Source: a virus. From it: a DNA stretch of 38,456 nucleotides. The stretch covers positions 1-38,456 of the IMG/VR virus record IMGVR_UViG_3300018080_000334, one strand, 5' to 3'. Below, in pieces: positions 98 through 38,456 of this stretch (position 1 is its first letter; every line of letters starts with the position of its first letter). The notes beneath the pieces were generated by a model. The model did not search any database. It worked only from the letters and a program-made list of their open reading frames with translations, and was not told the DNA's origin. Made by a program: the position numbers and the translations under genes.

Positions 98-117
98 TTG
101 TCGCAAAATATGTTTCA
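98..117 (+). repeat. Diverged copy of the transposase end repeat, outside the left end
   Basis: This 20-base site has the same orientation as the right-end repeats and differs from them at 2 of 20 positions. It lies 17 bases outside the presumed left terminus at 135. It could be an inverted left-end transposase site, if the true terminus lies further left, or the right end of a neighbouring related element. Confidence 0.6.
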
Positions 118-161: not shown

Positions 162-588
162 AGGGGATTATGGGTATTGATTTCTGATTGGCTATTTGTA
201 TGCCTTTAGTTGTTGGCCAAGTAAGGCCCCACTATCGATCCAGCCCGTTCCAATCTGCTCTTTCCCTACGTTTCTCTCCATTTTAATCCCGAATGGATAA
301 TCGGAACACCCTCCTTGTTTTTACTGAAAGTTATGCTGTAAGTAGAGCCTCTTTTTTGAAGAAATGTGGTTCCGACGCGGAGGCTTGGGGCGGAACTAAA
401 GGCGGAACCACTAAAACAGCTGAAAACTGAAAGAAAATAGATGAGTTATCGTAATTACAGTAAAACTTACAGTCGGAACCACTTTCAAGGTGTCAATTTT
501 GAAAAAAACGGGGTTTTTGGAGTTATTAATCACGGTCTTGGTACCTGCGAAAAAATTGCTCAAAAGAAGCCGAAAAATATTTCCGCGA
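162..588. promoter_or_regulatory. Gene-free left-end region with CGGAAC motif cluster
   Basis: I see no convincing gene here. The six-base core CGGAAC occurs five times within 302-479: direct at 302, 391, 403 and 474, and inverted at 369-374. Three of the copies extend to CGGAACCAC. By position this could be a set of repressor or transposase binding sites near the left end, but neither protein's site is known. Confidence 0.4.
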
Positions 589-990
589 TCAGCCGGTTGA
601 TGTGTCCAGTTTGACGAGATACACCAGGGCTGCGTCGTTGTTGAGAGGTAAAAATCTCACCAGGCGCTGTTTGTGTTCGACGGGGACAGTCAACGTGACA
701 GTGCGGATCACCGGCATTTTTTGGCAGATGACGTCCTGGATGCAGGCGGCGATGATATCGGCTTCTGACGGCTCCAGGAAGTCCCACACATAGCGGCCCG
801 GAATGTGGTGCGGACTGAACGGGGAGTTGGCCGCGGCCACTTCGTTGACCCATACCTTATATATAAAGGTGTCGCGGCATACCACCATAGCGGCGATGTC
901 TGGATTTTTGTGAACAACCCATTCCGGCAGCCAGGCGCATCGGGAAATGATATCCCTGGACCAACATCCCGGGACACGCCGAGATGTCAG
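589..990 (-). CDS. PAS-like sensory domain protein overlapping the repressor gene
   Basis: The open frame is about 133 residues if it starts at the CTG (990) that overlaps the repressor stop as CTGA. The first ATG is at 888 and would give 99 residues. The longer form contains VVHKNPDIAAMVVCRDTFIY, then a VNE segment and a short helix-strand pattern, which is the look of a PAS fold. The ATG form would cut that fold short. No kinase, HTH or output domain follows. It is the last gene of the leftward lysogeny cluster, so it could sense a ligand and act on the repressor; that role is inference. The start codon is uncertain because no clear ribosome site precedes either candidate. Confidence 0.55.
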   Translation of the reverse strand: MTSRRVPGCWSRDIISRCAWLPEWVVHKNPDIAAMVVCRDTFIYKVWVNEVAAANSPFSPHHIPGRYVWDFLEPSEADIIAACIQDVICQKMPVIRTVTLTVPVEHKQRLVRFLPLNNDAALVYLVKLDTSTG

Positions 991-1499
991 CTCGGCCCAG
1001 CCGCCGCCAACCTTTCCCCAGGGATCACCTTCTCTTTCTCGTCAATCTTGGATTCCAGATTCTCCACCTTTTTGATTAAAGCATCACATTTGTCTTCAAG
1101 AACGGCCGTCCGGCTCTCCAATTTAATGGACCGATGGAATGAGCGGATATTTGCGGCGAGGGACTCTGCATAGTCGGTTCCGGAAGTCAATATCTCCTCG
1201 GTCATATCAAGCAGGTCTGGAAGTGGACCTTGTTTGATGGGGTAATTGTCGTGATACGGCTTACCTGCACCGTTTTTGAGCCAATCCAAATTAACGTCAA
1301 ACATTGTCTCGACAGCTAAGAAAAACCGGTCACTTGGATTCGTTTTCACTCCTGTTATTAGCTGGGTTAAATATGCAGCGCTAAATCCGAGTTTGCCTGC
1401 AAAAACGGCACGATCGAGGCCCGAATCGCTTTCGATTTTGGCAATTCGTAAGCCTACTGGATATTTTTTTCTTTGCTCAGTTGATTTTTTTCTTGACAT
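987..1499 (-). CDS. XRE-family phage repressor (CI-like)
   Basis: A 170-residue protein starting at the ATG at 1499; the open frame extends upstream to a TTG at 1532. Residues about 15-65 form a helix-turn-helix of the XRE type (FAGKLGFSAAYLTQLITG followed by NLDWLKNG). The C-terminal third is a charged coiled coil (LESRTAVLEDKCDALIKK), probably for oligomerisation. There is no S24/LexA-type peptidase domain, so RecA-stimulated self-cleavage is not expected. It is transcribed leftward, as repressors of Mu-like phages are, and probably holds down the rightward early genes. A possible promoter (TTGAAA, then TATAAA) lies just upstream, next to a 24-base repeat at 1546. Confidence 0.8.
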   Translation of the reverse strand: MSRKKSTEQRKKYPVGLRIAKIESDSGLDRAVFAGKLGFSAAYLTQLITGVKTNPSDRFFLAVETMFDVNLDWLKNGAGKPYHDNYPIKQGPLPDLLDMTEEILTSGTDYAESLAANIRSFHRSIKLESRTAVLEDKCDALIKKVENLESKIDEKEKVIPGERLAAAGPS

Positions 1500-1545
1500 T
1501 CTTTGCCTGGCTAATTTATAACCCGTTATCAAATCACGTTTTCAA

Positions 1546-2929: not shown

Positions 2930-3145
2930 ATGCACCCCGCAGACATTCAATCAGAGCTTAAGAAACGAGGGATCACCCAGAAATCTATCGCCCAGGAGTT
3001 GGAGCGTTCGGAATTTCACATATCGGCTGTGATCCGAAAGCTCCGGGATTCGGACCTGGTGATGAGGGCTGTTGCCAAGAAGATCCATCGCGATCATCGC
3101 GAGGTGTTCCCGGAGTATTATTTCAACCTGAGCAAGGCCGCATAG
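2930..3145 (+). CDS. ner: Ner/Nlp-like DNA-binding regulator
   Basis: A 71-residue protein that is almost entirely a helix-turn-helix: IQSELKKRGITQKSIAQELE, followed by SEFHISAVIRKLR as the recognition part. Size and first place in the rightward early operon match Mu Ner, which turns down early and repressor transcription. AGAAAGGG precedes the ATG at a good distance. The start lies only 19 bases from the divergent leftward gene, so its promoter must lie within or overlap that gene. A weak candidate is TTGTCG with CAATAT around 2879-2907. Confidence 0.75.
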   Translation: MHPADIQSELKKRGITQKSIAQELERSEFHISAVIRKLRDSDLVMRAVAKKIHRDHREVFPEYYFNLSKAA

Positions 3146-3178: not shown

Positions 3179-3688
3179 ATGTCTAAACGGGGAAAAAGAA
3201 TAGATCCTAATCAGTTAAGTTTTGATTTTGACGATACGATTAACGAATGCGTCCGTTTAAAGCAGGAGATCCTGGCGCCGCCTGCGCATCCCATCAACGA
3301 GATGGAAGATTATCGGGAGGCGTGCATTGTCATGGCGGCGGCGGCCAAATGCGCTGTCCGGGAAAGCGGGATGAGCCGGGATGAGGTGGTGGACGCGATC
3401 AACGATCTGTTCGGATGGCCGAGGGAACCCCACAAAAAAGGCAAGTCTTTATCGATCCACATGTTCAACCATTACCTGTCCAAACCCGCTCAATATCCGA
3501 TACCCGCGTTTATTTTATGGGCCGTTCAGCATGTCACCAAATCGCTGACGCCGACCCGGGCCTTTGCAGAATCGGAGGATGCGCGGGTGATATCGGGCGA
3601 TGAGGTGAGGCAGATGGCGTTGGGCAAGCTGGATGAGACCATTTTGGAGATGCAGCGGCTCAAACGTGAATTGCGAGGGCGAAAGTGA
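3179..3688 (+). CDS. Hypothetical early protein preceding transposase A
   Basis: A 169-residue protein; the ATG at 3179 is preceded by AAAGGGCG at good spacing. The middle (MSRDEVVDAINDLFGW, then KSLSIHMFNHYLSK) has the look of a helix-turn-helix-containing domain. The last 40 residues are charged helix (LDETILEMQRLKRELRGRK). It overlaps the start of transposase A at TGATG, so the two are probably translationally coupled. Mu-like phages often carry an unassigned gene here. A role in transposition or its control is plausible but not shown. Confidence 0.7.
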   Translation: MSKRGKRIDPNQLSFDFDDTINECVRLKQEILAPPAHPINEMEDYREACIVMAAAAKCAVRESGMSRDEVVDAINDLFGWPREPHKKGKSLSIHMFNHYLSKPAQYPIPAFILWAVQHVTKSLTPTRAFAESEDARVISGDEVRQMALGKLDETILEMQRLKRELRGRK

Positions 3689-5901
3689 TGCCCGGCGACA
3701 CGATTTCAGCGAGTGAACTGGCAAGCATGGCAAGGAAATCAGATCGTTTCATCCGACAGCAGGCCTGTAAGCAAGCCTGGCCCTACCGCAACGGTGGCAA
3801 CCGGGCCAGGCGGTACCTTATATCGGGCCTGCCCACGGATTACCAGACCCTGGTGGCGAAAAAGATGGATATCCCCGACACCCTTCTCCCGGCACTATGC
3901 CCCGAGGCGGCCCTGGCGGTCGCCAGGAAGAACAGCCAGGAGCTGCCTTCCATTTATAAAGGTATGGCGGGGAAGATATCGACCTGGACCGACGAGACGG
4001 CCCTGGATGCGGATATCCTCCGGGACCCGCGGGTGATCAAATGGTCGCGGATCGTCCAGGAGGCGCTGAATGTGCCTTCGGGATGGAAGAAACGGGCCTG
4101 GATCGAGGCCGTGGCCGTTAAACACGACACATCATTCCAGACGGTTTACCGGTACATAAAGAAATATGAAAAAAGAGGGCTGGCAGGCCTCAGACACACC
4201 AAATCGAACAAAAACCAGCCTAAATCGTGGACCCCGGAGGCGGTGGACTGGTGGGTGGGCCTGTGTTTGAAGCGGGAACACCGAAAGGTCGCCAAAGACG
4301 AGCTTTACGGGATTCTGTCCATCGAGGCCCATCGCCGGGGATGGCGGATCGGGGGTTATGAGAGTGCGCTGTGGTGGTTCAGGCAGAAGGCAACCCCCCA
4401 GCTTTTGGCGCTTCAGCGGGGCGGGGTGCGGGCTTTGGACAATTTGTTGCCTCCGGTGCTCCGGGATTATTCGGACCTGGCGCCGTTCGAGATACTGGTT
4501 GGCGATCAGTACAGGTTCGATTTCTGGGTCGTGGATGAAACAACCGGGGAGGTGTTCCGGCCGGAGGGATATTTCTGGCAGGATCTGCGCACCCGGTGTT
4601 TTTACGGCGGGGCCCTGGACAAAAAATACGACGGCTACCTGATCGGCCTGGCCCTGCGCATGGGCCTGCACATCTTCGGCGCGTTCGGGTCGATCTACAC
4701 GGACAACGGCAAGCCCGAGTTGTCAAAATATGTCATGGGAATCCTGAAGGATATGGGTTCCCTGGGCCTGAAGGCGACACCGATAGTGGATGCGGCAATG
4801 GACCTGGACGACGACCCGGAACTGGTCAATCCATTGGCCAGAGTACCGGGCAGCCACATCAAGGCGATTGTGCGAAACGCCAAGGCCAAGATGATCGAGG
4901 GGACGTTCAATGTTTTGGAGGGGATTCTGCGAGACATGCGGGTTCCCGGATATGTCAAAGAACTGGGCGGGCTCCAGGAAGAAAACGAGGTTGACGAAAA
5001 GGAGCTTCAGCGATTGGCCCGGACCGGAAAGCTGCCCACGTTCTGGGAGTTCGTGGGCCGGGTCTTTCAGGGAATGGACTATTACAATTCGGAAAAAGTC
5101 CACCGGGGCGTGATCCGGGAATGGGCCTGGAAACCCAAGCCCAAGACGGCCACGCCGATGGACTGCCTCCGGGCGTGCTACAACGACGGATGGCGGCCCG
5201 GCCCGATCTCCAACCAGGCGATTGATCTTGTTTTCCTTCCCCGTGACACCCGAACCGTGGACAGGGGCCGGATCACGTTCCGAAATGACGTGTACGAGCA
5301 TGAGGCCCTGGTCAGCATCCCGAGGGGATACCGCGTGGAGATCCGGTTCGATCCGCTGGACCCGGAATACCTGCTGGTTTTCGACAATGACCGGTTTGTG
5401 TGCCGTGCCGAGCCGGTGGAATACTCATCCATGAAGAACCTGACCCTGGCATCCCGCAAAATCGAGGAAAAACGCCGGATACGCAAGGGGTTTATCCTTG
5501 AATATCGCAAGCTCACGTCTGCGGTGCCTGACTTTTTGGAGTATTCGACCGTATCGTTGACGGAACGGGCGGCTGCTGAGGTTGGCCGTGAAAAGGAAAA
5601 GGCCCGCAAGAAACGGTTGGCAGAACAGGAGGCCTCCCGCGTGCGCACGGCCGAGGAGCTGGAAGCCGAGGTGCGGGAGTTGGAAGCCAAGGCTGCCAGG
5701 CCTGCACGGAAAAAGCCCGTGCCCAAGCGGCCCGCGTATTTTCTGAAAGACCTGGACAGGTACAAATGGATTGTTGCCTGTGAACTGGCGGGCGGTGAAC
5801 TGATTGAGGAAGACATTGAATTCAAAGCCGCATACGAGGCACGGATGAACGAGGATGAGCGCGAGCGGTGGGACGTGGTTCGCGAATTGGGAGTACTGTA
5901 A
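3688..5901 (+). CDS. A: Mu-type DDE transposase A
   Basis: A 737-residue protein that cuts the phage ends and joins them to target DNA, for integration and replicative transposition. The N-terminus (ASMARKSDRFIRQQACK, then WPYRNGGNRARRYLI) matches the Mu-type DNA-binding domain. Helix-turn-helix repeats follow around residues 115-230. The catalytic triad is visible as D273 (GDQYRFDFWV), D339 (YTDNGKPE) and E404 (KMIEGTFNVLEG), close to MuA's D269, D336 and E392. A beta-barrel-like region and a charged coiled-coil tail (residues 610-690) follow and would contact protein B. ATG at 3688 is chosen over the GTG one codon earlier. It overlaps the previous stop and abuts gene B. Confidence 0.95.
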   Translation: MPGDTISASELASMARKSDRFIRQQACKQAWPYRNGGNRARRYLISGLPTDYQTLVAKKMDIPDTLLPALCPEAALAVARKNSQELPSIYKGMAGKISTWTDETALDADILRDPRVIKWSRIVQEALNVPSGWKKRAWIEAVAVKHDTSFQTVYRYIKKYEKRGLAGLRHTKSNKNQPKSWTPEAVDWWVGLCLKREHRKVAKDELYGILSIEAHRRGWRIGGYESALWWFRQKATPQLLALQRGGVRALDNLLPPVLRDYSDLAPFEILVGDQYRFDFWVVDETTGEVFRPEGYFWQDLRTRCFYGGALDKKYDGYLIGLALRMGLHIFGAFGSIYTDNGKPELSKYVMGILKDMGSLGLKATPIVDAAMDLDDDPELVNPLARVPGSHIKAIVRNAKAKMIEGTFNVLEGILRDMRVPGYVKELGGLQEENEVDEKELQRLARTGKLPTFWEFVGRVFQGMDYYNSEKVHRGVIREWAWKPKPKTATPMDCLRACYNDGWRPGPISNQAIDLVFLPRDTRTVDRGRITFRNDVYEHEALVSIPRGYRVEIRFDPLDPEYLLVFDNDRFVCRAEPVEYSSMKNLTLASRKIEEKRRIRKGFILEYRKLTSAVPDFLEYSTVSLTERAAAEVGREKEKARKKRLAEQEASRVRTAEELEAEVRELEAKAARPARKKPVPKRPAYFLKDLDRYKWIVACELAGGELIEEDIEFKAAYEARMNEDERERWDVVRELGVL

Positions 5902-6597
5902 ATGGAGAATCTGTTTATACCCACTGAAAACGTCAGCCTGTTCAATGACATCTGCATGGAGCTGGAAAGCCCGGCCAGCCGTATCGGGCCGTCACTGGCA
6001 ATGGTGTCGGGCCAGGCAGGACGCGGAAAGAGCGAGGCTGCCAAGAAATACGCGACCAACTCTTCTGCGGCGTACATTCCTCCCATGAACAAGCGCAGTC
6101 CGTTGATGGTGCTGCGCGAGATATCGTTTGAACTGTGCACGATAAAGCCGGGCCGGATCGAATCGTGCCTGGATCTGATATCGGATGAGATGGGCAGGGA
6201 GCGCCGGTTGATCATGATCGACGAGGCCGATCTGTTGCCCATATCAATATTGGAGATGCTGCGCAACGTCAATGAGCGGTGCGATTGCCCGATGCTCTTG
6301 ATCGGCGAGGAAGGGTTGAAGACTAAGATCGGATCGCGCAGGCGTTTGTTAAGCCGGATCCGTCGGCGCATGGAGTTCGGACCGGTGAGCCAGGCCGATA
6401 TCGTGCTGTTTTTCCGCAAAGCCCTGGAAGTGGCCATATCTCCTGAAGGAAGCTCGATGATCCATGCTCGATCAAGAGGAGATTGGAGACCGGTGTTGAC
6501 CATAGCCATTGACGTGGAGCGGGCCCTGCATGCGTCCGGGATCACACACGTGCCCGACGAACTGATTAAGGAGTTGACCGGTGGACGGAAGACGTAA
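5902..6597 (+). CDS. B: Transposition ATPase B (target-DNA activator)
   Basis: A 231-residue AAA+ ATPase of the MuB/TniB type, which coats target DNA and stimulates transposase A. Walker A is GQAGRGKS at residues 37-44 and Walker B is LIMIDEAD at 103-110. An arginine-rich segment (SRRRLLSRIRRRMEFG) near 150 may serve as sensor or arginine finger. It is shorter than MuB (312 residues) and lacks MuB's N-terminal HTH appendage. It starts directly after the stop of A and overlaps the next gene by 17 bases, so it belongs to one early operon. Confidence 0.92.
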   Translation: MENLFIPTENVSLFNDICMELESPASRIGPSLAMVSGQAGRGKSEAAKKYATNSSAAYIPPMNKRSPLMVLREISFELCTIKPGRIESCLDLISDEMGRERRLIMIDEADLLPISILEMLRNVNERCDCPMLLIGEEGLKTKIGSRRRLLSRIRRRMEFGPVSQADIVLFFRKALEVAISPEGSSMIHARSRGDWRPVLTIAIDVERALHASGITHVPDELIKELTGGRKT

Positions 6598-7084: not shown

Positions 7085-7525
7085 ATGAATACAGGGTTAG
7101 CGCAGGCGCGGGCACGAAAGGCCCAGAATAAGGAGAAAGCGCAGCGCAAGAACCTCCTGGCCCAGGTGCATATTGCCAAAAAGGATCTGTGCATTTTGGA
7201 CGGCGATTACCGGGACATCCTCTCCCGTGAATTCGGCAGGGAGAGCGCTGCGGATCTGAACAACGTGGAGCTGAAGTATCTGGTGGCCTATTTCAGGGAG
7301 CATGGATGGCAGCCCAAAGGCAGGCCGGACCAGGCCCAGGCCCTTCGGAAACGGGCCAGGACAATTGCGGGCAAGCTGGATGACGGAGAGCAGCGGTTGA
7401 AGGGGTTGTGCAAGCGGATCTGCCGGGTGGACCGGCTGGAATGGTGCAAGGATGTGAATCGGCTCAAGAGCTTGGTAGCGGCCCTGGGGAGGATATCGAG
7501 GGAGGCGGATTCGCAGGCCCAGTGA
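7085..7525 (+). CDS. gemA: GemA/gp16-like regulator (DUF1018)
   Basis: A 146-residue protein matching the Mu gp16/GemA family. A basic N-terminus is followed by LLAQVHIAKKDLCILDGDYR and FGRESAADLNNVELKYLVAY, both characteristic of that family. In Mu, GemA affects host gene expression and DNA supercoiling. The start has a strong AAGGAGG site. The stop codon is the first TGA of an internal copy of the phage end repeat (7523), so the C-terminus may have been cut or replaced when that copy arose. Mu's version is longer, which fits, but family lengths vary. Confidence 0.88.
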   Translation: MNTGLAQARARKAQNKEKAQRKNLLAQVHIAKKDLCILDGDYRDILSREFGRESAADLNNVELKYLVAYFREHGWQPKGRPDQAQALRKRARTIAGKLDDGEQRLKGLCKRICRVDRLEWCKDVNRLKSLVAALGRISREADSQAQ

Positions 7526-7549
7526 AAGATATTCTGCGACAATTCGCGG
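7523..7549 (+). repeat. Internal copy of the left-end transposase repeat
   Basis: 27 bases are identical to the left end at 135-161, in the same orientation, and the first 20 are also the inverse of the right-end copies. It supplies the TGA that ends gemA. Either it is a working internal transposase site or the scar of a rearrangement involving an end. Confidence 0.85.
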
Positions 7550-7556
7550 GGCCGGG

Positions 7557-7588
7557 TCTCTCACAGAGCCCACAGAGGACGCGGAGAG
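7557..7588. repeat. Type-1 interspersed repeat, single arm
   Basis: One arm (TCTCACAGAG-CCACAGAGGA type) of the palindromic repeat found in full at 22277, 23925 and elsewhere. It follows directly on the internal end repeat. Confidence 0.6.
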
Positions 7589-7627
7589 CGAGGCGGGCAG
7601 TTTGGCATATCCGATGCTTTTGTAGTG

Positions 7628-7653
7628 ATGGCCACCGAAATGATGGTGGTCAT
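7628..7653 (+). other. Hairpin upstream of the 7671 gene
   Basis: ATGGCCACC (7628-7636) pairs with GGTGGTCAT (7645-7653) across an 8-base loop, with one G-T pair. It lies 17 bases before the start at 7671 and could affect its translation or be an operator dyad. Confidence 0.4.
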
Positions 7654-7670
7654 GACATGAGGGGGGCCAA

Positions 7671-8360
7671 ATGAAAGGTGAAGATCTCGGGTATAACGTT
7701 AAGACGTGGGTCCATGACAGGCGGTTGACGCGGGCCGAGAGCCTGTTCTTGGGGATTTTGTGGGTCGACCATGTCGGCAAGGAAAACAAGATCCCGGCCA
7801 AGGATCTGGCGGTTGAATATGCGTTTTGCATGGAAGGGCGGCGTCTGGACCTGGATAATCCCTATGATTTGCCCGAGATCGAGCAGTGGAAACGGGACGT
7901 GCGATATTTGCAGACCCATTTGATAGAGAAGCATGACGAGATTCCCCTGTTTTCAAAGGCCGGGCTCGATGGCGGTTACTGGATCGCGGCCGATGAGACT
8001 GAAGTGGACGAATACTACTATCCGATGCAGCAGCGAGGCGTTCGCGGGATCAGGAAGGCGGGCCGAGCGAAAAAGACGTTCGTGGTGGAGGCCGTGAAAC
8101 AGTTGGCGTTCGATTTCGACAGGATCGCGGGCGATGATAGGCCCCAGGCCATCGCGGAGCGGGCAAAGACCACGGCCCCGGAGATTGTAGAGGTGTTGAT
8201 CGAGACAATGATGCAGAATCCGGAGCAATTTGCAGGCAAATTGGAGCGGTTGCGGGAGAAGTATTTTTCCGGAGGGGTGTTGTTAGGGAAAGACCGCCTG
8301 GCGGAGATCCGGGCCAAGGCCAGGGAGCTGGATGGGTTGGTGTCGGGGCTGGGGGGATAG
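7671..8360 (+). CDS. Hypothetical protein at the place of the Mu middle regulator
   Basis: An acidic 229-residue protein with a start preceded by GAGGGGGG. The first half contains LTRAESLFLGILWVDHVGK and a DLPEIEQWKRDVRYLQTHL helix, as in a winged-helix or replication-type fold. Residues about 118-135 are basic (RGVRGIRKAGRAKKTFVVEA). The end is helical and charged. It follows gemA, where Mu has mor, but it is much larger and shows no Mor/C signature. No family is recognised. A regulatory or DNA-binding function is a guess from position and the basic patch. Confidence 0.65.
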   Translation: MKGEDLGYNVKTWVHDRRLTRAESLFLGILWVDHVGKENKIPAKDLAVEYAFCMEGRRLDLDNPYDLPEIEQWKRDVRYLQTHLIEKHDEIPLFSKAGLDGGYWIAADETEVDEYYYPMQQRGVRGIRKAGRAKKTFVVEAVKQLAFDFDRIAGDDRPQAIAERAKTTAPEIVEVLIETMMQNPEQFAGKLERLREKYFSGGVLLGKDRLAEIRAKARELDGLVSGLGG

Positions 8361-8382
8361 ATACTGTACGTTTGTACAGTAT
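8361..8382. promoter_or_regulatory. LexA-type (SOS) box
   Basis: A perfect 9-base inverted repeat of the form ATACTGTAC-N4-GTACAGTAT. It contains TACTGT-N8-ACAGTA, which matches the enterobacterial LexA consensus CTGT-N8-ACAG including its flanks. The layout resembles the E. coli recA operator-promoter, with TAGATA in place of the -35. Deltaproteobacterial LexA proteins often use other boxes, so recognition by this host's LexA is uncertain. Confidence 0.6.
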
Positions 8383-8461
8383 TCCAGCATGGAATATCGA
8401 TTTTCAAAGGGAGCCTATGGAGGCTAACCGTAAACTGGCGGGGCCAATCGGGGCCCCGCCA
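8381..8461. other. Series of adjacent inverted repeats
   Basis: Directly after the LexA-like box come three further palindromes. These are ATTCCA-gca-TGGAAT (8381-8395), AGCCT-atgg-AGGCT (8412-8425), and a 10-bp GC-rich stem at 8436-8461 (TGGCGGGGCC pairing with GGCCCCGCCA). No T-run follows the last one, so it is not a standard terminator. The segment is probably a transcribed leader or a control region. Confidence 0.5.
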
Positions 8462-8470
8462 ACCATAATG

Positions 8471-8500
8471 TCTCTCACAGAGGACACAGAGGGCACAGAG
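8471..8500. repeat. Type-1 interspersed repeat, single arm
   Basis: TCTCTCACAGAGG followed by ACACAGAGGGCACAGAG, ending exactly at the start codon at 8501. It is one arm of the repeat family present throughout the late region. Confidence 0.6.
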
Positions 8501-8743
8501 ATGAAAAACAAATTGGGTGACCTGAATAATCATTTGTTTGCCGAGATGGAACGGTTAGGTGATGAGGACCTGAAGGGAGAGGCCTTGTCTCAGGAAATCG
8601 CCCGGGCAAAGGCGGTCTCTAATGTGGCAACCCAGATAATAAACAACGCCCGGCTTGTGATAAATGCCATGAGTATCATCAATGACGGGCTGATCAAGAA
8701 CCCTCCGCAAATGCTCGGCGTGAACGGATATGAAGAAGAGTAG
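8501..8743 (+). CDS. Small conserved phage protein of unknown role
   Basis: An 80-residue helical protein (LGDLNNHLFAEMERLGDEDL, then QEIARAKAVSNVATQIINNA). Small proteins of this kind are common in Mu-like phages next to HNH genes. The frame stays open upstream to an ATG at 8417 with a fair ribosome site. However, that stretch is palindrome and repeat sequence, so the ATG at 8501, directly after the repeat arm, is preferred. It is the first gene after the LexA-like box and overlaps the HNH gene by 14 bases. Confidence 0.7.
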   Translation: MKNKLGDLNNHLFAEMERLGDEDLKGEALSQEIARAKAVSNVATQIINNARLVINAMSIINDGLIKNPPQMLGVNGYEEE

Positions 8744-9554
8744 GGATTATACACCTGAAGAAATTGAATTTTTGCGGGTCGGTTGTTTGGCGATGAACGT
8801 TCGGGACCTCACGCAGGCATTTAACAAGCGATTCGGTACTGCAAAACCCGATACGGCCATTAATGCTGCGCTCAAAAATCATCACATTCTATGCGGAAGA
8901 AAACCAAAGGAGCGCCTGATATCAAGGAGGCTGCGAATTTACACAGACGAACAGGCGCAGTTTATTCGTGACAATTATGCAGGCCGAAGCGTAGCTGAAA
9001 TGACGGTGTTATTTAATGGGCGATTCGGGACAAAAATGACTCAAAAGCAGATTAAATCCTTCGTACACAACCGTGGAATCACTTCCGGCAGGACCGGATA
9101 TTTTCCAAAGGGTCACCGGCCCTGGAATTACGGTACAAAAGGACAGGGCTTGACGGGGTCTAATACGGGAAGCTTCAAAAAGGGAAATGTTCCGGCAAAC
9201 CGCAAACCCATTTGGTCCGAGCGGGTATGCCCGAAAGACGGCTTCATTTTAATGAAGGTCCCGGAGCCTGACCCTTACACAGGGTTTCAAACCCGATACA
9301 GGCATAAGCATGTCTATATCTGGGAGCAAACGCACGGACCTGTTCCGGACGGAATGGTTGTGGCATTCGTCGATGGAAATAAAACGAACTGTCACCCTGA
9401 AAACCTCATGTTGATTTCACGGGCCGAACTCCTGAATTTGAACCGTCACGGATATAAAGATTCTCCGGATCAATTGAAGCCGCACATCCTGGCGCTCTCA
9501 AAACTCCAGGTGAAGACATGGGCGATAGAGAATAACCGACTGGGGAAACAATGA
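8730..9554 (+). CDS. HNH endonuclease-family protein with doubled N-terminal DNA-binding domain
   Basis: A 274-residue protein. Residues 7-57 and 71-121 are two copies of one unit: YT(P/D)E, a helix, NxRFGT, a helix, then an H/NRGI-type end. Both resemble the Myb/GcrA-like module usually present once in phage HNH proteins. Residues about 190-235 are the HNH core (KHVYIWEQTHGPVPDGMVVA, DGNKTN, PENLMLISRAELL). The usual His-His pair before DGN is Ala-Phe, so cleavage activity is doubtful. It may instead be a DNA-binding regulator or a free-standing homing-type enzyme of a variant class. It overlaps both neighbours. Confidence 0.8.
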   Translation: MKKSRDYTPEEIEFLRVGCLAMNVRDLTQAFNKRFGTAKPDTAINAALKNHHILCGRKPKERLISRRLRIYTDEQAQFIRDNYAGRSVAEMTVLFNGRFGTKMTQKQIKSFVHNRGITSGRTGYFPKGHRPWNYGTKGQGLTGSNTGSFKKGNVPANRKPIWSERVCPKDGFILMKVPEPDPYTGFQTRYRHKHVYIWEQTHGPVPDGMVVAFVDGNKTNCHPENLMLISRAELLNLNRHGYKDSPDQLKPHILALSKLQVKTWAIENNRLGKQ

Positions 9555-12162: not shown

Positions 12163-12238
12163 TTCTCACACAAAGGCACAAAGGCACAAAGGAAAAACGA
12201 GAAAGCCCTTTTTTGTGTTCTTCGTGGCTCCGTGTGAG
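12163..12238. repeat. Type-1 interspersed repeat, complete, inverted orientation
   Basis: Arms TTCTCACACAAAGGCACAAAGG and TTCGTGGCTCCGTGTGAG flank an A/G-rich centre, and the repeat is preceded by AAACCCGGCG. It lies between the endolysin gene and the 40-residue gene and ends 22 bases before the next start. Confidence 0.75.
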
Positions 12239-12260
12239 CAAGAAATTTGGAGAAAACGCG

Positions 12261-13888: not shown

Positions 13889-14002
13889 TCACACGGAGCC
13901 ACCCCAGTGAAATAAAATGAGATTTCACGGGGCAGGCGAAGAACACGGAGAACTGCTTTTTTGGTTTTAAAATCTTAGTGGCTTTGTGTCTTTGTGTGAG
14001 AC
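13889..14002. repeat. Type-1 interspersed repeat carrying an inserted palindrome
   Basis: The upstream arm begins TCACACGGAGCCAC (13889-13902) and resumes at GAAGAACACGGAG (13938). Between them lie 35 extra bases (13903-13937) with a GTGAAAT/ATTTCAC stem flanked by CCC and GGGG. The downstream arm ends GTGTGAG at about 14000. The large terminase start is 13 bases further on and has no other ribosome site than this GTGAG. Confidence 0.8.
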
Positions 14003-14012
14003 CAAAATAAAA

Positions 14013-15554
14013 ATGGCGAAAAAGATTACCATACGACAGAAGCTGACCAAGGCCGAATTCAAAAAGCGATACACCGAAGTTATCGCGGCATTGACGGCCG
14101 AGGTGTTGCCGTTTGCGGACGATCCGGAAGAAAAGCGTCAACGGGTCGAACGGTCCAGGACCGATCACTTCTTTTTCTTCCGCACCTACCTACCCCATTA
14201 TTTCTATGCCGAGGAGGCGCCCTTCCATCACGACCTCATCGAGGACCTGGACACCCGGCCCGACCCGGATGACCCTTCCGACGTCATGGTACCGGTGGCC
14301 GTTGCGGCGCCCAGGGAGTTTGCCAAGAGCACGATCACCTCGTTCGGATACGCGATCCACCAGATCTGCCACAAGCTCAGGAATTTCATCATTATCGGGT
14401 CGGACACCGAAGACCTGGCAGGCGATCTGACCGGATATCTGCTTCTGGAGCTGGCCATGAATCAGCGGCTCCGCCAGGATTTTGGCGAACTGGCGTCGCC
14501 GGACTGGTCGGTTTACGATTTTGTGACCAAAAATGACGTCCGGGTTCTGGCCAGGGGCCGGGGCCAGCGGATCCGGGGGCTCAAGCATAAACAATACCGG
14601 CCCGATCTGGTGATCCTGGATGACCTGGAAAACGACCAGAACGTCAAGAACCCCCGCATTGTCAAAGACCTGCTCAAGTGGATCAAGGAGACGGTTTATC
14701 CGGGCATTGCGGCAACGGGCAACCTGTTTATTATCGGGACGATTCTGGCGAAACGGTCGGCGCTCAATATCATTATCCGGGGCGATGAGGAGCCGTACAA
14801 TCACTGGATTCGCCGGATCTACCGGGCCATCCAGGACGATGGCACATCGCTATGGCCCACGGCCCATCCCATTGAGAAGCTTCTCAGGCAAAAGGAACTC
14901 ATGGGCTCCATTGCCTTTAACAAGGAGAAGCAGAATAACCCGACCGATGAGGACTCCCCATTTCGTGAGGAGTGGATCCGGTATTTTCACGAGGATGAAA
15001 TCCAAAATATCGATCTGCTGATCGTGGCAGGCCTGGACCCGTCGAGCAAGGAGACCGGTGATGATAAAGGCCTGGTTGCCGTGGGCCTGGATCGGCAGCA
15101 GATGATCTATTACGTCATAGCCGCCTGGGTGCGCAAGGCGTCGCCTGCGGGGATGATGGACGCCTGTTACCGGCAGCACAAAGAGGTCGGATGGATACAG
15201 CTGGGGGCCGAGGACAATGCGCTCAAGGATTTCTTGAGGGCGGTCATGGATGAGGCGGCCAAACAGTACAACTATTATCTCCCTGTCAAGGAGATCAGCC
15301 ACAATACCAACAAGGAGGCCCGGATCGTGGCGGGTCTGAGCCACCTGGTGGAGCACGGCAAACTCAGGTTTTTAAAGGGACACACCGATCAGGACAAGGT
15401 GGTGGAGCAGCTTCTGTATCTGGACCAGCCTTCTTTTCCGGATGACGGGGCCGATGCCCTTGAAATGGCCGTGGATCTGCTCAAGCCCCGTGGCGGGAAA
15501 ACAGAATACGAAACGCTGTCCAAGCGCCGGTTTGCGGTCAAAGGAGCGTGGTGA
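14013..15554 (+). CDS. Large terminase (packaging ATPase-nuclease)
   Basis: A 513-residue motor that drives DNA into the prohead and cuts it. A Walker A variant lies at about 98-107 (AAPREFAKST) and Walker B at 199-208 (LVILDDLEND). A coupling segment follows (NLFIIGTILAKRSALN). The RNase H-like nuclease starts at LIVAGLDPSSKE near residue 336, with later acidic residues in GAEDNAL and DDGADALE. It is of the Mu gp28 type by context. The start is placed at ATG 14013; earlier in-frame codons lie in the repeat. It overlaps the portal start. Confidence 0.92.
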   Translation: MAKKITIRQKLTKAEFKKRYTEVIAALTAEVLPFADDPEEKRQRVERSRTDHFFFFRTYLPHYFYAEEAPFHHDLIEDLDTRPDPDDPSDVMVPVAVAAPREFAKSTITSFGYAIHQICHKLRNFIIIGSDTEDLAGDLTGYLLLELAMNQRLRQDFGELASPDWSVYDFVTKNDVRVLARGRGQRIRGLKHKQYRPDLVILDDLENDQNVKNPRIVKDLLKWIKETVYPGIAATGNLFIIGTILAKRSALNIIIRGDEEPYNHWIRRIYRAIQDDGTSLWPTAHPIEKLLRQKELMGSIAFNKEKQNNPTDEDSPFREEWIRYFHEDEIQNIDLLIVAGLDPSSKETGDDKGLVAVGLDRQQMIYYVIAAWVRKASPAGMMDACYRQHKEVGWIQLGAEDNALKDFLRAVMDEAAKQYNYYLPVKEISHNTNKEARIVAGLSHLVEHGKLRFLKGHTDQDKVVEQLLYLDQPSFPDDGADALEMAVDLLKPRGGKTEYETLSKRRFAVKGAW

Positions 15555-22252: not shown

Positions 22253-22276
22253 ACCGAACCCGGCAAGACAGAATGA

Positions 22277-22354
22277 TCACACGGAGCCACGAAGAACACG
22301 AAGAGAATCTTTTTGCGGTTTAAACTCTTAGCGGCTTTGTGGCTTTGTGTGAGG
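22277..22354. repeat. Type-1 interspersed repeat, complete copy
   Basis: Arms TCACACGGAGCCACGAAGAA and GGCTTTGTGGCTTTGTGTGAGG flank a T/A-rich centre. It is preceded by AACCCGGCAAGACAG, as are other copies. It fills the gap between major capsid and the FluMu-like gene. Confidence 0.8.
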
Positions 22355-22381
22355 ACAAGATTTTGGGAAAGGAGGATTGCA

Positions 22382-23514: not shown

Positions 23515-23540
23515 CCGTGAACCCGGCAAAAACATATTGC

Positions 23541-23614
23541 TCACACAAAGACGCAAAGGCACGGAGTGAAAAATTTAAAATTCTTCTTTGTGTTCTCTGT
23601 GGCTCTGTGTGAGA
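23541..23614. repeat. Type-1 interspersed repeat, complete, inverted orientation
   Basis: TCACACAAAGACGCAAAGGC at one side and TGTGTTCTCTGTGGCTCTGT then GTGAGA at the other, again preceded by AACCCGGCAAAA. It ends six bases before the AGGAGGAG of the next gene. Confidence 0.8.
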
Positions 23615-23631
23615 AAAATCAGGAGGAGCAA

Positions 23632-23904
23632 ATGGGACTTGTACTGATAGGCGAAAGCTTTGAAGTGGTGGACGGGCCGTACAAGGGCAAAACGTTCGTG
23701 CGCGGCAAGACATATGCCGAGGCCGAGGTGCCGCCCAATGAAAAGAAGCGGTTCAAACAGGTCAAAGACAGGCCAAAAAAAGCGGACGGCCCGGAGGCGG
23801 CGCCAGACAAATCCGTTCCGCAGGCGGCGAGCAAAAAAAGCGGCGCCTCTGAAAATAAAGCAAAGGCATCCGGGGCGGACAGCGGCAAGTTTAAAAAAGC
23901 GTAA
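23632..23904 (+). CDS. Small hypothetical protein with KOW-like start and disordered tail
   Basis: A 90-residue protein. Residues 1-45 (GESFEVVDGPYKGKTFVRGK) look like a small beta-barrel, and the remainder is a Lys/Ala/Ser/Pro-rich disordered tail. AGGAGGAG precedes the ATG. It lies just before the tail tube gene in the head-tail border zone. No family recognised. Confidence 0.6.
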   Translation: MGLVLIGESFEVVDGPYKGKTFVRGKTYAEAEVPPNEKKRFKQVKDRPKKADGPEAAPDKSVPQAASKKSGASENKAKASGADSGKFKKA

Positions 23905-23924
23905 ACCCGGCAAGACCAAAATGA

Positions 23925-24001
23925 TCACACGGAGCCACAGAGAACACAAAGAAAAGATTCTTGGGGTTTTAAGCCTTCGTGGCCTTGTGCCTTTGTGTGA
24001 G
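23925..24001. repeat. Type-1 interspersed repeat, complete copy
   Basis: TCACACGGAGCCACAGAGAA and TTCGTGGCCTTGTGCCTTTG then TGTGAGG as arms, preceded by AAACCCGGCAAGACC. It is very similar to the copy at 22277, which suggests copying of a whole intergenic segment. Confidence 0.8.
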
Positions 24002-24021
24002 GAAAAAGGAGGGTCCGACAA

Positions 24022-33522: not shown

Positions 33523-33640
33523 TCACACGGAGCCACAGAGCACATAAAGAAAGAATGCCGTCATTCGGGGCCCCGCATAAGATGCGGGATAAACTACAGC
33601 CGGAATCCAGGTCTTCGTGGCTTTGTGCCTTTGTGTGAGA
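33523..33640. repeat. Nested interspersed repeat (type 2 inside type 1)
   Basis: Type-1 arms at 33523-33554 and 33611-33640 flank a type-2 unit at 33559-33610. That unit itself holds a CCCGCAT-aag-ATGCGGG hairpin between its two halves. The 3' GTGTGAGA is the only ribosome-site-like sequence before the next start at 33649. Confidence 0.8.
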
Positions 33641-33648
33641 ATTAAATC

Positions 33649-34761
33649 ATGGCCTTAAAACACTGTTTCAATACATGGGCGGCCCTTCAGGCGGTTGATC
33701 TTGCCGATTGCACGGACGGCGACACGGCCACCATGTATTTTAACGAGCGCGACCGCCTGATGCAGTTCGTTGCCACGGATACCGGCGCGGAGAACAACAC
33801 CCGGCCGGGCCTGTACCGCCTGCGGCCTCACGACTATGTGAGCGCCGGGGTGTGGGTGGAGAGCCCCGGCAATGACTATGATACGGTGAACGGCGGCCAG
33901 ATCATCGGAGACATTATTTACAGCACGAACTGGAGCGCTTCGGCCGGATCGATGTTTGATCTAAATAACGGTATTCTCAAAATGGGGGGAAGCGATGTTA
34001 ACGCGGCCCTCAGTGCAACGACTGGGGTATTTATTGGCCGGGATTCAGGGGTCGATAAATTCGCGGTGGGTAAGGCATACGGGGACGCGGATGAGCAGTC
34101 ATATATTATCTGGAATGGAGCTCTATCCATGCGGATGGCGGCTGGCGAGACATTCCAGCTATACGGCAGCATCACCATTAACGATGGCGGAGACATTAAG
34201 CTGGTCGGCAACGACGAAATTGGGGATAAGGCGACGGTTATCTTTTCGGAAAATGTGCGCATGGGGTGTGATTCGGACAGCAACCTGGGCCTTTGGAATT
34301 CAGACAATGAGGCGAGATTTTACATCGGACATGAACCTTCCGGCGGCACCTCTTATGCAGAAAGTGCATTCAAGGCAATCTCCATGTCCGCAACGGATTT
34401 GGTGACGATGCAAAGCGATGATGGCAGCGTCGCCTATGCGAAAATACAGCTGGCTTCTACATACAGCATGCCAAGCTTTACTATTTTTAGCCTATATTCT
34501 AATACGCATGGAATTTATTTATATGGGGTTTCCAACGGCAGCGGTGAAATGTTCAAAATATACAGGAGCGATGCTATATCAACGCATGACATATTAACCA
34601 TAACCAAAGATGAAATGACGTTCGAGGGGGGTGTTTTGAGCTTACTGGAAACATCAACGCCTTCGGCAGACGGCAGTTATGGAAAAATTTACACGAAAAA
34701 CGACAACAAGCTCTATTTCCAGGACGGAGCGGGAAGCGAGCACGAGCTCGCTTTTGCATAG
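33649..34761 (+). CDS. Tail fibre/receptor-binding-type protein
   Basis: A 370-residue, Gly/Asp/Ser-rich beta protein. N-terminal part MALKHCFNTWAALQAVDLAD is likely the attachment region. The shaft has repeats such as MRMAAGETFQLYGSITINDG. The C-terminus (ETSTPSADGSYGKIYTKNDN, KLYFQDGAGSEHELAF) is a common end of fibre proteins. Bases 34440-34640 are much richer in A and T than the start of the gene, which suggests exchange of the tip module. It follows the nested repeat directly. Confidence 0.7.
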   Translation: MALKHCFNTWAALQAVDLADCTDGDTATMYFNERDRLMQFVATDTGAENNTRPGLYRLRPHDYVSAGVWVESPGNDYDTVNGGQIIGDIIYSTNWSASAGSMFDLNNGILKMGGSDVNAALSATTGVFIGRDSGVDKFAVGKAYGDADEQSYIIWNGALSMRMAAGETFQLYGSITINDGGDIKLVGNDEIGDKATVIFSENVRMGCDSDSNLGLWNSDNEARFYIGHEPSGGTSYAESAFKAISMSATDLVTMQSDDGSVAYAKIQLASTYSMPSFTIFSLYSNTHGIYLYGVSNGSGEMFKIYRSDAISTHDILTITKDEMTFEGGVLSLLETSTPSADGSYGKIYTKNDNKLYFQDGAGSEHELAFA

Positions 34762-38327: not shown

Positions 38328-38369
38328 TTGTCGCAGAATATCTTTCAGTTTGTCGCAGAATATCTTTCA
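38328..38369 (-). repeat. Right terminal repeats (two direct copies, 22-bp period)
   Basis: Two identical 20-base copies at 38328-38347 and 38350-38369, each the inverse of the left end at 135. Tandem transposase A sites 22 bases apart are typical for the right end of Mu-like elements. The outer copy ends in CA, giving a presumed terminus at 38369. Confidence 0.75.
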
Positions 38370-38370
38370 G

Positions 38371-38456
38371 CCGCCAGGGACCGCCAGGAGGATGGGTGCA
38401 TTGGCCAGCCGGAAGATTTCAATCGGTATGGCGGCCAGCTGGACGCCGCTCACGTG
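38371..38456 (-). other. Right flank with an open frame running into the element
   Basis: The GC-rich flank is open in one frame on the minus strand (HVSGVQLAAIPIEIFRLANA and so on) and stops at the TGA provided by the outer end repeat. It may be part of a host gene interrupted by the insertion. Too short to name. Confidence 0.3.

Follow-up and report, generated by a model that had tools for sequence, protein, structure and literature searches.

The stretch of DNA analysed here (the window), a virus record of 38,456 bases, carries a Mu-like phage, whose main features are collected in Table 1. Like Mu, it has a MuA-like transposase, an AAA MuB-like protein, GemA, a Ner-like HTH protein and paired right-end sites, while terminase, portal and head protein genes lie downstream of the HNH endonuclease. 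At least three regulator-like genes are present, including the HTH proteins at 2930 and 3173. Relatives of its transposase, at 52–62% identity, are found in viral contigs and in metagenome-assembled genomes (MAGs) of Deltaproteobacteria. The subject of this analysis is an inverted repeat that begins directly 3′ of the p229 stop codon, at the head of a 140-nt gap before the gene for a small conserved phage protein (p2044). The profile behind the latter's name, phrog_2044, bears the label “RNA polymerase beta subunit,” which seems wrong: this is a conserved phage protein of 80 residues that pairs with an HNH endonuclease.

Table 1. Features of the phage discussed in the text (window positions).
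Feature	Position	Strand	Basis or remark
Left-end transposase-type site TGAAAGATATTCTGCGACAA	135..154	-	related site at 98-117 (+)
Predicted host-type LexA operator, direct repeat ACTTACAGCATAACTTTCAGTAAAA	319..343	-	matrix score 26.0
Predicted host-type LexA operator, direct repeat AATTACAGTAAAACTTACAGTCGGA	453..477	+	matrix score 24.6
HTH repressor without S24 peptidase, in the leftward gene row 2910 to 589	987..1532	-	domain search
Ner-like HTH	2930..3145		
MuA-like transposase	3685..5901		
AAA (MuB-like) protein	5902..6597		
GemA	7085..7525		
p229, function unknown (weak phrog_2113), gene before the dyad	7671..8360	+	profile match
9-4-9 dyad, exact E. coli-type SOS box	8361..8382		sequence reading, shuffles
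Candidate phage-specific structured leader between p229 and p2044	8361..8500	+	folding; absent in sisters
Second dyad TATTCCA-GCA-TGGAATA, 3-nt overlap with the first	8380..8396		read from sequence; partly hairpin in fold
GC-rich 10-6-10 hairpin TGGCGGGGCC-AATCGG-GGCCCCGCCA, without T run	8436..8461		repeat and terminator check
p2044, small conserved phage protein (phrog_2044)	8501..8743	+	E = 2.6e-29
HNH endonuclease (HNH_3, phrog_1891), paired with p2044 in relatives	8730..9554	+	domain/profile match
Right-end copies of the transposase-type site	38328..38347 and 38350..38369		paired, 22 bp apart

The repressor gene, as an earlier note on this DNA had stated, encodes no self-cleaving domain. 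The same note's view that Mu-like phages are generally not SOS-controlled fits this group poorly: Peptidase_S24 is present in four of six sister repressors (L002, L004, L022, and L023, but not L005 or L008), so that self-cleaving repressors are common among these phages. Mu itself, to our knowledge, has no S24 self-cleaving repressor; the present group differs from it in that several sisters do, and in that this phage combines a short repressor with LexA-type direct repeats. A 31-nt repeat, 90% identical between its copies at 1539–1569 and 2011–2041 and containing the ribosome-binding-like AAAGGAG, lies upstream of the leftward repressor gene and of a neighbour.

Several repeats mark the ends and the interior. 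The candidate true termini are TGGGGGGGTTAAGATATT, starting at position 4 (4–30), and a near inverted repeat of it, TGGCGGCTGAAAGATATT, which ends at 38376 (38350–38376); were these the ends, the last 80 bases would be host DNA. No 5-bp target duplication was seen. The left-end transposase site recurs in mid-phage, at the end of gemA (7523–7549), as a perfect 27-nt copy of 135–161. Many dispersed intergenic repeats such as TCTTAGTGGCTTTGTGTCTTTGTGTGAG occur at 12165–12241, 13916–14013, 22269–22366, 23540–24014, and 33523–33652.

The dyad and the stretch 8361–8500

The dyad, ATACTGTACGTTTGTACAGTAT, is made of two arms, ATACTGTAC and GTACAGTAT, that pair perfectly over 9 bp around the centre GTTT. 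Since this centre is asymmetric, the element is a 9-4-9 dyad and not a 22-base perfect palindrome; of the “perfect dyad” first described, only the arms stand. The match to the classic enterobacterial SOS box, also described there, is exact, on the other hand. TACTGT-N8-ACAGTA, which agrees with the enterobacterial LexA box in spacing and at each of its 12 fixed positions, occurs once in the window, inside the dyad, and never in 200 Markov shuffles of the window (mean 0.0), where the shorter CTGTN8ACAG has a mean of 0.21. An inverted repeat of this size is ordinary (eight 9-bp inverted repeats with spacers of 0–20, overlapping or nested, against 4.3 expected in the window), and the improbable part is its agreement with the LexA half-site. 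Could such an ordinary repeat simply spell an SOS box by chance? The roughly four repeats expected per window would allow it, but the exact motif was encountered only 3 times in 148 relatives of G001, the host of a sister prophage (genome sizes 0.7–7 Mb), which makes it very rare per 38 kb. The dyad moreover falls squarely within an intergenic leader that contains other dyads, and coincidence is in our judgment very unlikely.

The surrounding stretch contains three dyads in a row (8361–8382, 8380–8396, and 8436–8461). Region 8355–8505 folds with z = −4.63, none of 200 shuffles being as stable, and z is still about −2.8 (−2.84) when the dyad is left out (8383–8505); the opposite strand is almost as stable (z = −4.21), as is usual for dyads. 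An Rfam search of 7400–8800 returned chance matches only. The dyad and the hairpin at 8436–8461 were also considered as an intrinsic terminator, a reading rejected because the GC-rich hairpin carries no T run. In phage records, the leader has only short matches, two of which fall in a CACAGAG repeat; versions of this repeat stand at 7556–7587 and 8470–8501, upstream of p229 and p2044.

Comparison with sister phages sets this stretch apart from its flanking genes. A search of viral contigs with p229 as query found no relative. Orthologues of p229 exist in L003, L004, and L093 (39–43%), and the dyad is absent from all three. It is likewise absent from the sisters with the p2044-HNH pair (L024, L025, L028, and L094), in which p2044 follows upstream neighbours with no comparable leader. 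The dyad and leader being missing in all sisters with the flanking genes, the stretch 8361–8500 is particular to this phage. The 22-mer itself has 13 other matches in viral contigs, none of them accompanied by this phage's proteins. The transcriptional context is no more favourable to an operator: no forward promoter-like site was found between the dyad and 8500, and the sole promoter-like site overlapping the dyad points leftward. Both observations count against the earlier proposal that a LexA operator here controls the block starting at 8501.

An operator need not belong to LexA. The dyad could be bound by a regulator encoded by the phage at the border of early and middle genes, such as a Mor-like middle activator or one of the HTH proteins at 2930 and 3173. 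The regulator-like genes noted above and the overlap of two dyads at 8361–8396 fit such a role, as does the position after gemA and p229, which corresponds to that of the middle promoter in Mu. However, the half-site arrangement was not found again elsewhere in the phage, a domain search of its proteins gave no match to the Mor family, and sisters keep gemA and p229 yet have no dyad, so that we consider a phage regulator quite unlikely here.

The reading that we prefer, and to which we give about an even chance, is that the dyad is not the working LexA operator of the phage but the opening stem of a structured leader particular to this phage, any SOS link lying instead at the left end. The leader would be a short insertion between p229 and p2044, with the dyad as the first of several stem-loops, and would probably act on the early-operon mRNA, through its processing, its stability or access to the start site.

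LexA operators in candidate hosts

Whether host LexA could recognize the dyad depends on the sites used in candidate host bacteria. Their readable recA promoters contain no SOS box, and recA is thus of no help in defining the motif. TACTGTN8ACAGTA is found in 15 of 395 genomes of G001's phylum and, as given above, 3 of 148 relatives of G001, in both cases below the reversed control pattern. Inverted boxes do occur upstream of lexA elsewhere in the phylum: a 7-4-7 box, ACTRTAY-N4-RTAYAGT, is present with at least 12 of 14 matches in 29 of 102 lexA promoters, against 0.8 in shuffles, and two genomes (G366 and G405), whose LexA helix SANAAEEH is close to that of E. coli LexA, carry the exact TACTGTN8ACAGTA. 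The idea of an SOS box is therefore not absurd for this phylum. Across it (L060 and L069 compared with L073, L120, and L145), the 7-4-7 frame of the LexA boxes and its TAC-N4-GTA centre stay constant, while the outer bases vary with the recognition helix.

The clade of the sister hosts uses another arrangement. G001 and G029 both carry close relatives of this phage and a readable lexA, with LexA helices SFNTVTTYL/SYNAVTTYL. In this clade (Deltaproteobacteria MAGs, LexA helix SYNTVTTYL) lexA promoters contain a direct repeat, ACTTACAGTAAAACTTACAGTATT, often accompanied by TTGACT as −35. Among the 57 lexA promoters read, most of them from relatives with a G001/G029-type helix, 30 have CAGTA-N7-CAGTA and 28 have same-direction TACAGTA half-sites at 12-bp spacing (0.02 in shuffles); none of the 57 showed an inverted pair at the E. 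coli spacing. Reported LexA motifs in Geobacter and Bdellovibrio, unlike this direct repeat, are palindromes (PMC8565304), whereas the operators of Alphaproteobacteria are direct repeats, GTTC-N7-GTTC (quoted in PMC8565304). The clade operators, and the left-end boxes described below, are likewise head-to-tail and about one helical turn apart, but with a different half-site, (T)TACAGTA, a 12-bp period, and in Deltaproteobacteria. A small literature search found no report of this LexA direct repeat in Deltaproteobacteria. In one genome of the clade (G072, L293), an exact direct-repeat box precedes an ORF resembling, by eye, the C-terminal part of an IS91/ISCR-type transposase. A search of viral contigs for the exact direct repeat gave no Mu-like relative among the matches listed.

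The dyad's half-site, TACAGTAT, is exactly that of the sister-host clade, in inverted order. The earlier note had proposed comparing the site with host lexA promoters, and would have given it up if host LexA bound an unrelated motif and sister phages did not conserve the site. Conservation in the sisters is indeed lacking, but TACAGTA is common to dyad and clade, so that the host motif is not unrelated; the clade's lexA sites share the half-site, as a direct and not an inverted repeat. A true operator, on which host LexA would hold two inverted half-sites and repress a promoter until DNA damage frees it, accordingly has on its side the exact SOS box (0.0 expected), the identical half-site and the inverted boxes upstream of lexA elsewhere in the phylum. 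It has against it the direct repeats of the sister-host clade, where the E. coli-spaced inverted form is unseen in lexA promoters and not enriched in genomes, together with the lack of a forward promoter and of conservation in sisters. LexA control at 8361–8382 is thus weakly supported: a serious but weaker rival to the structured leader, and one that we regard as doubtful. The dyad has the fixed positions of the enterobacterial box and none of its promoter context.

Direct-repeat boxes at the left end

A 25-bp matrix was built from 40 unique clade operators (training scores 12.6–41.0). With this matrix of the sister-host clade, the dyad scores −6.2, while two boxes at the left end (319–343 and 453–477) score within the range of the training sites. 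The best scores were 13.1 in 60 shuffled windows and 10.2 in 300 local shuffles, and none of the sister phages has a score above 11.8. Both boxes contain two same-direction TACAGTA half-sites 12 bp apart and agree with the consensus at 16 of 18 positions, whereas 60 AT-rich 38-kb controls reach 14 at best. The presence of clade-type boxes suggests, from sequence, a host from that same clade for this phage.

Both boxes are internal to the phage, flanked by the left-end transposase sites on one side and by the end of the leftward repressor gene row on the other. The first aligns with the clade lexA promoter layout and points out of the left end, with poor hexamers; the second points into the repressor gene row, antisense to it. 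No clear gene or promoter was found after either one. Four copies resembling GTGGTTCCG lie between and beside the boxes, within 366–482 (482–473, 412–401, about 397–389, and, inverted, 375–366), and are possible repressor operators.

Two matrix hits beside an operon whose repressor lacks S24 make it plausible that an SOS link exists at the left end and does not involve repressor cleavage. What the earlier note had anticipated, a connection to DNA damage outside the CI-type switch, thus gains support from these boxes and from the S24-less repressor, but not at 8361. If the phage has such a link, LexA would be expected to bind both boxes, which match the lexA operators of the sister-host clade, and to repress at least one of the two divergent transcripts. 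The dyad, given its clade half-site, may then serve as a secondary, inverted LexA site.

A more elaborate scenario can be drawn from the same elements: within a group whose repressors mostly detect DNA damage through S24 self-cleavage, the phage would have lost its cleavable repressor domain and borrowed host LexA through the two direct-repeat operators, so that loss of LexA would free left-end transcription, running either outward or, in antisense, into the row of genes with the repressor, and would trigger the lytic cycle, with 8361–8382 as a third, inverted site. We consider this unlikely.

The structured leader remains our preferred account of the dyad, and the case illustrates that a textbook motif, even when reproduced exactly, can be misleading if the host regulator has changed its site. 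A sequence-level LexA motif, the direct repeat of TTACAGTA, is now available for an uncultured clade of Deltaproteobacteria, from which SOS regulons and prophage induction in that clade can be predicted. If the left-end boxes work, DNA-damage sensing would have been swapped from repressor cleavage to host LexA among related phages.
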